Shown here: one piece after another, positions 14,909-16,938 of the stretch | How the letters are laid out: the number at the start of each line of letters is the position of its first letter | Position numbering within the stretch: the stretch's first letter is position 1 | Source of the DNA: Devriesea agamarum | GTDB lineage: Bacteria > Actinomycetota > Actinomycetes > Actinomycetales > Dermabacteraceae | Length of the DNA: 64,000 nt | NCBI RefSeq assembly: GCF_900070355.1 | Contig: NZ_LN849456.1 | Coordinates: 2,356,001 to 2,420,000, forward strand | Direction of reading: 5' to 3' | Position numbers and translations under genes: made by a program | The notes under the pieces: model-generated | What the model was told of the DNA's origin: nothing | What the model saw: the letters and a program-made list of their open reading frames with translations, nothing else | Databases searched by the model: none

Positions 14909-15088
14909 GCGGACGCCGAGCGACCCCCCTCGCTGGCGGCGTCCTGGGCAGGCCCATTTTCCAGGTTCCCCCACCTCGGCGGGTCTGCCTCCTCGGAAAC
15001 CCGGTCCTAACCCCGCCGGGAACGAGGAAGGCGAGCGGTCCGTGAGCCCCCGGTATCGGGCGCGCGCTCCGGACCGCTCGCCATTTTT
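14909..15088 (+). ncRNA. 6C-type small RNA
   Basis: A stand-alone structured RNA of about 180 nt with its own promoter and terminator. Hairpin 1 pairs GGACGCC (14911-14917) with GGCGTCC (14938-14944), and AGCGA with TCGCT inside it, leaving a loop of six C. Hairpin 2 pairs GGCAGGCCC (14947-14955) with GGGTCTGCC (14981-14989), containing AGGT/ACCT around a C-rich loop (TTCCCCC). A third hairpin pairs CCTCG/CGAGG and CCCGG/CCGGG (14991-15027), followed by a 12-bp terminator stem. Two hairpins with C-rich loops define the actinobacterial 6C RNA motif. Known 6C RNAs act through C-rich loops on G-rich mRNA sites. The family call is from pattern memory, not a covariance search. Confidence 0.75.
15030..15088 (+). 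terminator. Terminator of the 6C small RNA
   Basis: A perfect 12-bp stem GGCGAGCGGTCC (15030-15041) with GGACCGCTCGCC (15071-15082) is followed by ATTTTTAT. The 29-base loop holds a further CCCG/CGGG mini-hairpin. It separates the small RNA from the convergent regulator gene. Confidence 0.88.
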
Positions 15089-15111: not shown

Positions 15112-15804
15112 TCAGCCGAAAATGTGGACGTCACTGCCTGGATCCAGACGGTAGCCACTGCCTCGGGCCGTGCTAATCAGCCGACGGTAGCGACCGAGCT
15201 TATTGCGTACCCGCCGCACATGAACATCCACGGTTCGCTCGCCGGTCTCCCCCTGATTCTGGGCCCACACCGTATTCATGAGTTCGGTGCGCTCCACGAC
15301 CCTCCGTGCATTGCGCGCAAGGTAGGCCAACAGCTCGAATTCCTTATACGTGAAATCGATATCGTTGCCATCCAGACGTACGCGACGTCCGTGCAGGTCG
15401 ATGCTCAGCCCGGGAGCAAGGTCAGAGCCGGTGAAGGAGGGGCTCACCGCCGTGGCGCTCTGGGTGCGGGCCCGCAGTATTGCCAAATCGCGGCGTGCCG
15501 GGGCATTCGGCGAGACCACGCCGGTCCGACGGGGCTGCGTTGCGCTGGAGGGGGCAAGAGCCGTGACCCGACGATTAGTGGTCGGTGATGCTGCCAGGTG
15601 TGCGTCACGACGTCGAATGGGATCCACCGCACGTACGGCGCGAGCGGTGGATGCCGCGCCGAGGGCGTGAGCGTGGGCCCGCAGCGTTTCGGTGAATCGG
15701 GCAGCATCGTGAGGAGTGCTGCCAGGGGGAAGGGTCAGCGTCAAAATGACAGTGATATCTTCGCGCTGAGCAGAGGGGACAGGGGCCAAGGGTGCGATGC
15801 TCAT
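15112..15804 (-). CDS. Winged-helix regulator (OmpR/PhoB-type DNA-binding domain)
   Basis: A 230-residue transcription factor. The C-terminal 95 residues form an OmpR-type winged helix: GLSIDLHGRRVRL, then FTYKEFELLAYLA, RTELMNTVW, RTVDVHVRRVRNKLG and STARGSGYRLD. The N-terminal 130 residues are not a receiver domain: the early part has a short alpha/beta pattern (ITVILTLTLPPG, FTETLRAHAHALG) and the rest is linker. It therefore probably does not answer to a histidine kinase phosphotransfer. ATG 15804 has a GGAG seven bases upstream; longer frames start inside the leader. A leaderless Met/Cys-rich micro-ORF lies 136 bases upstream on the same strand. Confidence 0.85.
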   Translation of the reverse strand: MSIAPLAPVPSAQREDITVILTLTLPPGSTPHDAARFTETLRAHAHALGAASTARAVRAVDPIRRRDAHLAASPTTNRRVTALAPSSATQPRRTGVVSPNAPARRDLAILRARTQSATAVSPSFTGSDLAPGLSIDLHGRRVRLDGNDIDFTYKEFELLAYLARNARRVVERTELMNTVWAQNQGETGERTVDVHVRRVRNKLGRYRRLISTARGSGYRLDPGSDVHIFG

Positions 15805-15940
15805 GGGATGACTCCGATGCATGAAAGCCTGATGTGAAACCGGGATCCCGTCAGAAGTCGGGCCGTGCTCCCGGGGCACCTGGAGCCCACGCCGGTGGCT
15901 GGCTCCTGTCAGCCGGCCACCTATTGGTCGTATCGAACGC

Positions 15941-16048
15941 TTAGAGGCTCGGCTGACGTCGCATCATCGACATGCACATGCCGCACATCGCCGGCATCAT
16001 GACAGGCGCGCAGGGCGCGGTCACGAGGGGGCGGTAAGCGGTAGACAT
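15941..16048 (-). CDS. Leaderless Met/Cys-rich micro-ORF, 35 aa
   Basis: A 35-codon frame on the minus strand, ATG 16048 to TAA 15941. Its product has eight Met and three Cys; residues 17-29 read MMPAMCGMCMSMM, and C13 lies just upstream. A candidate promoter places transcription start on the ATG itself, so translation would be leaderless. Such a composition suggests soft-metal binding (copper, zinc, mercury) or a sulfur-amino-acid-sensing leader peptide for the winged-helix gene downstream. The 136-base gap contains GGTGGC/GCCACC and GTGC/GCAC dyads that could form alternative hairpins. I know no family match. It could be non-functional. Confidence 0.5.
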   Translation of the reverse strand: MSTAYRPLVTAPCAPVMMPAMCGMCMSMMRRQPSL

Positions 16049-16055
16049 AGAAAAG

Positions 16056-16085
16056 ATTGTGGTGCGATGCGTTCACACTGCGCAA
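16056..16085 (-). promoter_or_regulatory. Candidate leaderless promoter of micro-ORF
   Basis: On the minus strand TTGCGC (16085-16080), 18 bases, then CACAAT (16061-16056). Seven bases separate the -10 from the ATG at 16048, placing the transcription start at the start codon. Inferred from consensus only. Confidence 0.45.
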
Positions 16086-16299
16086 CGCTTTGTTCGCAAT
16101 TCGAGACAGTGCACGTCAGCGCCATCACCGGACCGCCGTCTCGGGCACGCGGCTTATGCCGGTGCTGCCTAAGGGCGCCGCCAAAGAGGGCTATCTGAGG
16201 GGTCAGCCTGCGAAGACAGCTCCCGGGTACGCGGCGCTGACATCGGCCCTGCCGCCGCAACTACCTATCGCACTGTTGCGGCGGCGACATCAGCGGGTT

Positions 16300-16938
16300 C
16301 TAGTCGACGACACCAAACAGGCGGTCGCCCGCGTCACCAAGACCCGGAACGATGTAGCCCTTCTCATCTAGACGCTCGTCAATTGCAGCGGTCACCACGG
16401 TGACATGTGCCTCGGGGTCAACAGCCTGACGCATCGTCTCCAGACCTTCCGGAGCTGACAACAAGGTCACGCAGGTAATGTCGTGAGCGCCGCGAGCCAC
16501 CAGATACTCAACCGTGGCAATGAGTGTGTGCCCCGTTGCAAGCATCGGATCCAGCACGAAGCACTGCCGACCGGTGAGATCATCCGGCAGCCGGTTCGCA
16601 TAAGTGGTCACGTCGAGAGTTTCCTCGTTGCGAACCATCCCGAGGAATCCAACCTCAGCGGTAGGCAGCAACCGGGTCATCCCATCGAGCATTCCCAACC
16701 CTGCCCGCAACACCGGAACCACCATGGGTTTCGGATTCGTCAACCGGGTTCCCACCATAGGAGCGACCGGAGTTTCAATGTTCACATCGGCCACCGCAAC
16801 ATTGCGGGTCGCCTCATACGCCAGGAGTGTCACCAGCTCATCAGCCAGCTGCCGAAAGACAGAAGAGTGAGTCTCTTTGTTCCGCAACACGGTGAGCTTA
16901 TGGGCGACAAGCGGGTGATTGATCTCCAGAACGCGCAT
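16300..16938 (-). CDS. upp: Uracil phosphoribosyltransferase
   Basis: Upp converts uracil and PRPP to UMP in pyrimidine salvage. The 212-residue protein matches the family end to end: [20 protein letters not shown] at the start, [13 protein letters not shown], the PRPP-binding loop [12 protein letters not shown], and the C-terminal [12 protein letters not shown], where the uracil-binding residues lie. Length is typical (about 210 aa). It is transcribed divergently from tadA with 27 bases between the start codons, so the promoters overlap. Confidence 0.97.

Follow-up and report, generated by a model that had tools for sequence, protein, structure and literature searches.

A conserved Met/Cys-rich leader peptide as a probable attenuator of an orphan GlnR-like winged-helix regulator in Dermabacteraceae

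Introduction

Leaderless poly-cysteine uORFs that function as attenuators have been described in mycobacteria (Canestrari et al. 2020, PMC8764745), and Cys-rich leaders of these organisms are also cited in PMC13236596 and PMC9094748, as far as the accessible text of these sources goes. Trp, ilv, and cys leader-peptide attenuators are known from actinobacteria (Seliverstov et al. 2005, PMC1262725). In the accessible part of that study, the cys leaders have no obvious terminators, no conserved structures are reported for other amino acids, and a methionine leader is not named. According to an excerpt of PMC13236596, ribosome stalling in the uORF of whiB7 turns on a transcription factor associated with antibiotic stress. 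PMC4833913, in its accessible section, cites a 2014 paper about sulfur-metabolism genes linked to leaders, which may overlap with the subject treated here.

Here, we analyze a Met/Cys-rich micro-ORF (uORF) upstream of a winged-helix regulator gene in a member of the Dermabacteraceae (group f1 in our analysis), a family placed in the Micrococcales. The stretch of DNA examined, called the window, comprises 64,000 nt (G000:C1:2356001-2420000) of a 2.96-Mb genome. We are not aware of any published leader peptide that relies on Met runs, and to our knowledge no sulfur regulator is known in the families studied. A literature search by title and start of the abstract, in a collection outside which most subscription papers lie, returned neither a Met-run leader nor this regulator.

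As far as the available descriptions permit comparison, the locus shares with the mycobacterial poly-Cys uORFs a short, presumably leaderless ORF that is rich in sulfur-containing amino acids and appears tied to sulfur metabolism, and its counterparts in three other families (f19, f6, and f9) even have adjacent Cys codons (CC or CCC). In the mycobacterial type, the adjacent Cys codons form a run near the stop codon. The uORF of the window, in contrast, has no adjacent Cys codons, and Met predominates in Dermabacteraceae. Moreover, a transcription regulator instead of an enzyme operon is located downstream, the gap between the two is long, and the end of the uORF is embedded in RNA with alternative pairings. 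Regulatory codons in a short ORF and mutually exclusive hairpins, the latter described for trp, are also features of the actinobacterial attenuators in the part of PMC1262725 at hand, but here the target would be an orphan winged-helix regulator, and no U-tailed terminator is present. Stalling in a uORF that turns on a transcription factor would be common to this locus and whiB7 as excerpted in PMC13236596, whereas the Met/Cys codons suggest a link to amino-acid supply rather than antibiotic stress. Judged from its sequence, the system would work like the actinobacterial leader-peptide attenuators, without the features that define the classical terminator type or the poly-Cys type.

Results

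The micro-ORF and its surroundings

The features of the locus are summarized in Table 1. The uORF encodes the peptide MSTAYRPLVTAPCAPVMMPAMCGMCMSMMRRQPSL-stop with eight Met and three Cys residues, no two of the Cys being adjacent. A preliminary description, made from the letters of the window, had proposed a 35-codon frame of this composition 136 bases away from the regulator gene. Both statements were borne out, the distance between the uORF stop and the regulator ATG at 15804 being exactly 136 nt. The best short ORF of the window has a higher Met+Cys score than all 200 dinucleotide shuffles (p=0.005, the floor of the test).

Table 1. Coordinates of sequence features at the uORF/regulator locus (positions within the window).
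Feature	Position	Strand	Remarks
upp (uracil phosphoribosyltransferase)	16300..16938	-	upstream neighbour; outside the proposed mechanism
Operator-like element GTCTCGAATTGCGAACA	16091..16107	-	directly upstream of the -35 element; candidate, with a putative binding protein
-35 element TTGCGC	16080..16085	-	from sequence; same position as TTG-type -35 elements in relatives
-10 element CACAAT	16056..16061	-	7 nt before the uORF ATG; predicted leaderless transcript
Met/Cys-rich leader peptide ORF (uORF)	15941..16048	-	35 codons; from sequence and relatives
RNA segment A GTCAGCCG	15950..15957	-	within the last uORF codons (GTCAGCCGA); pairs with B
RNA segment B CGGCTGAC	15908..15915	-	pairs with A or C
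RNA segment C GGAGCC	15901..15906	-	alternative partner of B and D
RNA segment D GGGCTCC	15882..15888	-	alternative partner of C and E
RNA segment E GGGAGC	15867..15872	-	partner of D
RNA segment F GGGATCCCGG	15840..15849	-	possible partner of E
Shine-Dalgarno-like GGAG of the regulator gene	15812..15815	-	from sequence
Orphan winged-helix regulator, 230 aa	15112..15804	-	C-terminal Trans_reg_C; no receiver found

Three other loci (L077, L079, and L087) likewise have upp upstream of the uORF, as seen by eye. A SNF2 helicase gene is located downstream of the regulator. In the gap between these two genes, visual inspection revealed a perfect inverted repeat (GGCGAGCGGTCCG...CGGACCGCTCGCC, 15030-15082), followed by a T run on the plus strand.

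The gap between uORF and regulator bears on the idea that translation of the uORF only boosts or couples initiation downstream, without any sensing. Reinitiation has indeed been proposed for actinobacterial leader ORFs in PMC4833913, but for short distances, as far as the accessible text of that paper goes, and in relatives the gap extends to as much as 363 nt, measured up to where the regulator match begins. This explanation, which also leaves the Met/Cys enrichment unexplained, seems very unlikely to us.

Conservation of the micro-ORF in Dermabacteraceae

Regulator matches were obtained in all 58 genomes searched, including 29 orthologs from Dermabacteraceae, which define the loci L003-L031; the same ortholog is carried by Brachybacterium, Helcobacillus, and Dermabacter loci. 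A Met-run ORF is found upstream of the regulator in each of the 29 loci. Most of the encoded peptides share the C-terminal end MM[HRQ]RQPSL-stop, with deviations to MMQSQPRF (L022), MMMHRQPRS (L029), and RRQPSI (L030). The diverged genus g3 has the peptide MFACHQHHTMSAYAGMWFGMPMHMMQRQLSL, with RQLSL in place of RQPSL. The peptide of G003, (GTG)IIQRASVEVMSMPEMRSGMHRCLCRA, is Met/Cys-rich without a Met run and has lost RQPSL. The order of residues within the Met region is free: Met and Cys interchange and other residues vary (e.g., MMFMMMMPMM vs MMMCMCMM). We compared the best Met+Cys ORF in a region of constant length (540 bases) preceding the DNA-binding motif with those of 200 dinucleotide shuffles. 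In all 36 f1 loci tested, the window among them, the floor of p=0.005 was reached. Based on these comparisons, the micro-ORF is real and conserved.

A soft-metal-binding or redox miniprotein, one of the two readings offered initially, would agree with the density of Met and Cys. Pfam and NCBIfam searches revealed no family match for the uORF peptide, and the NCBIfam models returned no family for seven peptides at E values up to 10, with filters that may lose short peptides. Ligand spacing is not conserved across loci, and the 3′ end of the ORF doubles as a strand of an RNA helix in Dermabacteraceae (see below). What is kept is the codon content and the RNA pairing, not a fixed ligand motif, and we find this reading hardly credible. 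The other initial reading, a Met/Cys-sensing leader peptide, is upheld by the conservation and placement of the uORF and by the RNA switch described below.

Counterparts in other families

With the G055 ortholog as query, 297 genomes of the order yielded 73 matches at E<=1e-25, distributed over f1, f6, f7, f9, and f19. Families f19, f6, and f7 may be Microbacteriaceae, Micrococcaceae, and Brevibacteriaceae, respectively. Among 296 genomes of the class, the same query gave 23 matches at E<=1e-22, five of which come from genomes of other orders. Of these five, two cover the DNA-binding half only, and in the other three (G515, G586, and G480) the match extends into the N-terminal half with 39-41% identity. 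Upstream of one regulator-like gene outside the order (L149), looked at without statistics, we noticed the short ORF MPRLLLTQRRAVDLMRVASQLCR, which presumably resembles a leader peptide commonly found with sulfur genes in actinobacteria.

Examples of the upstream ORFs are MTDNARTLSAREANGTAGIMMPRVAMCCRMCH in f19, MTNNEAMTSATHLMRMPAAAMCMRCVRGR in f7, (GTG)NKNSTAPAAAEHWTSTPAAANMRCCRMHA in f6, and an ORF with the end MSSCVCCPA in f9. Short C-termini are conserved in f19 (MCCRMCR) and f6 (CCRM). The shuffle test gave p<0.05 for 21/21 loci in f19 (L094 was dropped because the region is too short at a contig edge), 8/11 in f7, 9/22 in f6, and 2/3 in f9. Family f6 is the weakest because the top-scoring ORF is often in a frame other than that of the CCRM ORF. 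Using peptide signatures drawn up after the peptides had been inspected, a recognised ending is present in 40/40 f1, 21/22 f19, 13/22 f6, 9/11 f7, and 2/3 f9 loci, and missing from nine f6, two f7, and one f9 locus. A regulator kept without the frame had been named beforehand as the observation that would speak against the ORF; the opposite was found in f1 (36/36) and f19 (21/21). Outside these two families, conservation of the frame holds mostly in f7 (8/11) and less so in f6, where 9/22 loci are without a recognised ending.

The mean numbers of Met/Cys residues in the last 20 codons are 8.4/0.5 in f1, 4.4/3.0 in f19, 2.3/2.3 in f7, 1.4/2.1 in f6, and 1.0/3.0 in f9. Based on these numbers, the sensed residue seems to shift between Cys and Met. 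As an additional observation, two codons of low GC content, TGT for Cys and CGA for Arg, recur in the conserved TGTTGTCGAATG core of f6 and f19 (L089-L110), and their repetition possibly tunes ribosome speed.

Promoter placement and predicted leaderless start

The putative promoter of the window is arranged as TTGCGC-18 nt-CACAAT-7 nt-ATG. The preliminary description had placed the transcript start of this promoter on the ATG. Its elements are present and their placement is kept in relatives, but the sigma-70 consensus search gave no match at this position, and the comparison with random positions gave a p value of about 0.05. The promoter of the window is therefore weak when taken alone, and its support comes from the conserved placement in relatives.

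For each locus, we determined the best promoter among those whose –10 region ends 5-9 nt upstream of a uORF start. In 36/36 f1 loci, the –10 region of this promoter is located 6 or 7 nt upstream of the start. Values of p<0.05 relative to random positions were obtained for 19/36 f1, 14/21 f19, and 6/9 f7 loci. The strong form of the promoter in f19 is TTGACA-18-CATAAT. Seven f19 loci scored zero because the filter demanded an A at the second position of the –10 region; by eye, TTTACT, TTGACT, or TTAACT follows TTGACA in these loci. Based on promoter placement, leaderless initiation of the uORF is predicted. Directly upstream of the –35 region, the operator-like GTCTCGAATTGCGAACA lines up by eye with GTYYCRNNATGTGAACA in relatives, a pattern that it matches with two mismatches.

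Alternative RNA pairings downstream of the uORF

A nearly invariant stretch downstream of the uORF is common to the f1 loci and contains a chain of complementarity (A:B, B:C, C:D, and D:E). The alternative hairpins suggested earlier for the region between uORF and regulator are present in the window as mutually exclusive pairings of segments A to E. Visual inspection of g3 did not reveal segment F.

To compare ribosome positions, we folded 30 f1 loci, scoring base-pair probabilities >0.5 and placing the A site of the stalled ribosome 36 bases upstream of the stop codon. Without a ribosome, A:B was favoured in 19 loci, B:C in 9, C:D in 15, and D:E in 9. With the ribosome stalled on the Met run, these numbers changed to 30, 0, 25, and 3, and with the ribosome on the stop codon to 0 (A being masked by construction), 19, 8, and 15. 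Contrary loci are thus the eight that still favour C:D at the stop and the three that favour D:E on stalling. The predicted switch of the window is clean, with A:B at 1.00 and C:D at 0.93 on stalling, and B:C at 1.00 and D:E at 0.93 on the stop codon. In this model, the pairing parity fits stalling at the Met/Cys codons.

We searched the 90 bases that follow the uORF for the longest stretch complementary to its end and compared it with shuffles; p<0.05 was reached in 27/36 f1, 6/9 f7, and 2/13 f6 loci, but in none of the f19 (0/21) or f9 (0/2) loci. The pairing sequence of f7 differs from that of f1 and is itself variable, with CGTTCGCGACC in L136/L137 versus CGTCCGCGGCC in L138. RNAalifold predicted 28 pairs for 18 f1 loci, five of them changed on both sides, with a small covariation term (-0.39). 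An RNA model derived from the same 18 sequences and run with strict filters gave matches in 46/47 family genomes at E<=0.1. Two of these genomes match weakly (E about 1e-3 and 3e-4), and the matches occur once per genome except for a weak second one in G013 (E 0.083). It matched 33/396 genomes of the order, all 33 in Dermabacteraceae, and found no match in G003. As judged by these searches, the A-E chain is not general across the uORF-bearing families.

The uORF end could also be conserved for the sake of the peptide, if the Met-rich nascent chain together with the RQPSL end stalled the ribosome on a small molecule (e.g., SAM or an antibiotic) and not on uncharged tRNA. Retention of RQPSL-stop in most f1 loci and the short conserved C-termini of f19 (MCCRMCR) and f6 (CCRM) would agree with such an arrest peptide. 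However, the pairing of GTCAGCCGA with segment B can account for RQPSL, the Met/Cys codons stay where this end has changed to RQLSL (g3) or has been lost (G003), and the order of residues in the Met region is free. We therefore regard an arrest peptide as unlikely.

Alternatively, segments B to E could be a ligand- or protein-binding element, such as a riboswitch, to which the uORF is secondary. CGGCTGACAGG and CAGGTGC are invariant in 18 aligned loci even where some structures leave parts unpaired, yet segments with two partners each also predict such invariance. No Rfam model matched the window at gathering score, and the leader gave only one weak and unrelated match at E<=10 (E 1.7), so that a known Rfam riboswitch or leader was rejected. 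Furthermore, the element found no match in G003 and the other families searched, though Met/Cys uORFs are kept there. This makes a binding element quite improbable.

On the regulator strand, no U-tailed terminator was found between 15000 and 16200, and the other strand gave one chance-level match. A classical attenuator with an intrinsic terminator was rejected, as the leader contains no hairpin followed by a U tract.

A different RNA solution was seen by eye in f19 (L089-L110). Many loci have a predicted hairpin in the final 66 bases of the uORF, with the ATGATGATG Met triplet inside its loop or close to it; the stems vary from locus to locus (CCGGC/GCCGG or CCGAC/GTCGG).

An orphan GlnR-like regulator

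The initial statement that the N-terminal half of the winged-helix protein is not a receiver domain agrees with the searches: the C-terminal Trans_reg_C domain (E 6.4e-23) is the sole Pfam hit, and Pfam found no receiver in the regulator of the window or in three relatives. The structure model is of moderate confidence (pLDDT 76.7, pTM 0.49) and shows two helices and low-confidence stretches in the N-terminal half. In a fold search, the hits were winged-helix DNA-binding domains together with response regulators, the latter aligning through this domain. GlnR is the nearest solved structure and also ranks first by sequence, with 46-50% identity to Saccharopolyspora GlnR over the aligned domain. 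The protein thus shares its winged-helix DNA-binding domain with GlnR and PhoB/OmpR-type response regulators (8hml, 8hig, and 1gxq) and differs from them by the lack of a detectable receiver and by its gene neighbourhood.

Repeats upstream of sulfur genes

Upstream of the f7 uORF promoters, we identified direct repeats of the kind GTCAYA-N4-GTCAYA-N3-GTCTCA. A two-repeat pattern derived from these promoters, which it matches by construction, gave 22 matches in nine f7 genomes compared with three for the control. Nine are located at the regulator's own promoter (in 8/9 genomes); of the other 13, five belong to metY, two, which overlap each other, to sfnG, one is beside a flavin reductase gene, and five are without assignment. 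The triple repeat was found 36 times in the same genomes, many of these matches overlapping within one array, and never in the control. Sixteen are upstream of metY (NF005872) and cover 9/9 genomes. Further triple repeats are associated with ssuE-like (three), ssuB-like (one), dszC/sfnB-like (two), and sfnG (one) genes and with the regulator itself (one), while no sulfur gene was assigned at L239 and L175; in total, 26/36 sites were inspected. The genes preceded by repeats include those for an SsuE-type FMN reductase (TIGR03567), a sulfonate/taurine-type ABC ATPase, SfnG (TIGR04021), and a DszC/SfnB-like oxidoreductase, the last divergent from an ABC gene. Of the assignments made here and below, metY, sfnG, SsuE (barely), and mmuM exceed the curated NCBIfam cut-off, whereas the ssuB-, dszC/sfnB-, SAM-hydrolase-, and MetN-like proteins scored below it, as pieces.

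In 15 genomes of f1, f19, and f6, the triple repeat occurs 17 times (control: three), including four own uORF promoters in f19. Six of the other 13 sites were inspected: one precedes mmuM (L256, f6), one a SAM-hydrolase-like gene (L248, f1), and four (L249, L251, L255, and L267) have no clear sulfur link. The window's own genome contains no triple repeat. A four-fold GTCAC repeat was noticed in an f19 genome (L254; G163:C9:683876-683910).

The counterpart site of Dermabacteraceae resembles GTCYCR-N4-GTGAAC, with a ten-base period as in f7. Allowing two mismatches to GTYYCRNNATGTGAACA, we obtained 126 matches in ten f1 genomes against 29 in the control (27 against 9 in the window's genome), with the regulator's own site among them in 8/10 genomes. 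Seven other sites of the 126 were inspected by eye: one lies before metN, one before an amino-acid ABC transporter gene, two before MarR-like genes, and three are without a sulfur link. In four of five named f1 loci (L033-L036), a metN-like gene (TIGR02314, a piece below cut-off) lies about 2-5 kb upstream of the regulator; none was found near the regulator in L032 or in the window, the genome of which carries metN elsewhere (G000:C1:1937847-1938854). Upstream of metN, TGTGAAC occurs in L034, L036, and L183 and ATGAAC in L035, neither being present in L033; the window's own genome has AATGTGACA at this place. No repeat arrays were seen by eye before the closest homologs of metY in f1 and f19, with two exceptions: GTCACATGCCGTCAC lies upstream of the nearest homolog in the window's genome (L226, which scores best with TIGR01326 but below cut-off), and a paralogue in f19 (L238) is preceded by GTGACGGCCGGTGAC. 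In two of three f6 loci, SAM-IV riboswitches (RF00634) precede metY (L214:1295-1411 and L215:1170-1284).

The occurrence of the repeats both before sulfur genes and at the regulator's own promoter ties the regulator, by inference, to sulfur acquisition, and the regulator would then bind the GTCAY repeats. These could instead belong to another regulator. GlnR sites are GTNAC direct repeats, and GlnR itself could be a rival binder of the f7 repeats.

Discussion

Taken together, the pairing parity, the Met/Cys codons directly preceding segment A, and the connection to sulfur genes favour Met/Cys attenuation over the other explanations of this locus. The leaderless leader peptide probably acts as a ribosome-mediated Met/Cys attenuator that controls the orphan GlnR-like winged-helix sulfur regulator. 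Directly visible in the sequence are the conserved uORF, its placement at the predicted promoter, the A-E chain of Dermabacteraceae, and the conserved regulator.

For the stalling, its ON/OFF sense, the effector step, and binding by the regulator, we infer the following course. If charged Met- and Cys-tRNA were ample, the ribosome would reach the stop codon and cover segment A; B:C and D:E would then form, and expression of the regulator would stay low. If Met-tRNA (or, in relatives, Cys-tRNA) became short, the ribosome would stall on the Met/Cys codons and leave A free, allowing A:B and C:D to form, so that D:E would be blocked and the regulator made. The regulator would act on sulfur acquisition and methionine genes via tandem GTCAY-like repeats and also on its own promoter. 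As no U-tailed terminator was found on the regulator strand of the leader, D:E may either stop transcription, through Rho or as a terminator lacking a U tract, or limit translation.

In a broader view, which we favour with some reserve, the protein is an undescribed master regulator of sulfur acquisition in several families of the order, switched by a leader that reads the charging of tRNA with sulfur amino acids and in which the sensed residue has drifted among lineages, with Cys-heavy (f6 and f9), mixed (f7 and f19), and Met-heavy (Dermabacteraceae) forms. The version with a Met run would be a dedicated methionine-tRNA attenuator. Methionine is an awkward residue for ribosome-based sensing because initiation also needs it. 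If the reading is true, the locus would provide a testable example of Met-tRNA sensing, name a candidate sulfur regulator for these families, and represent a leader peptide that switches the sensed amino acid while keeping its position before the same gene.
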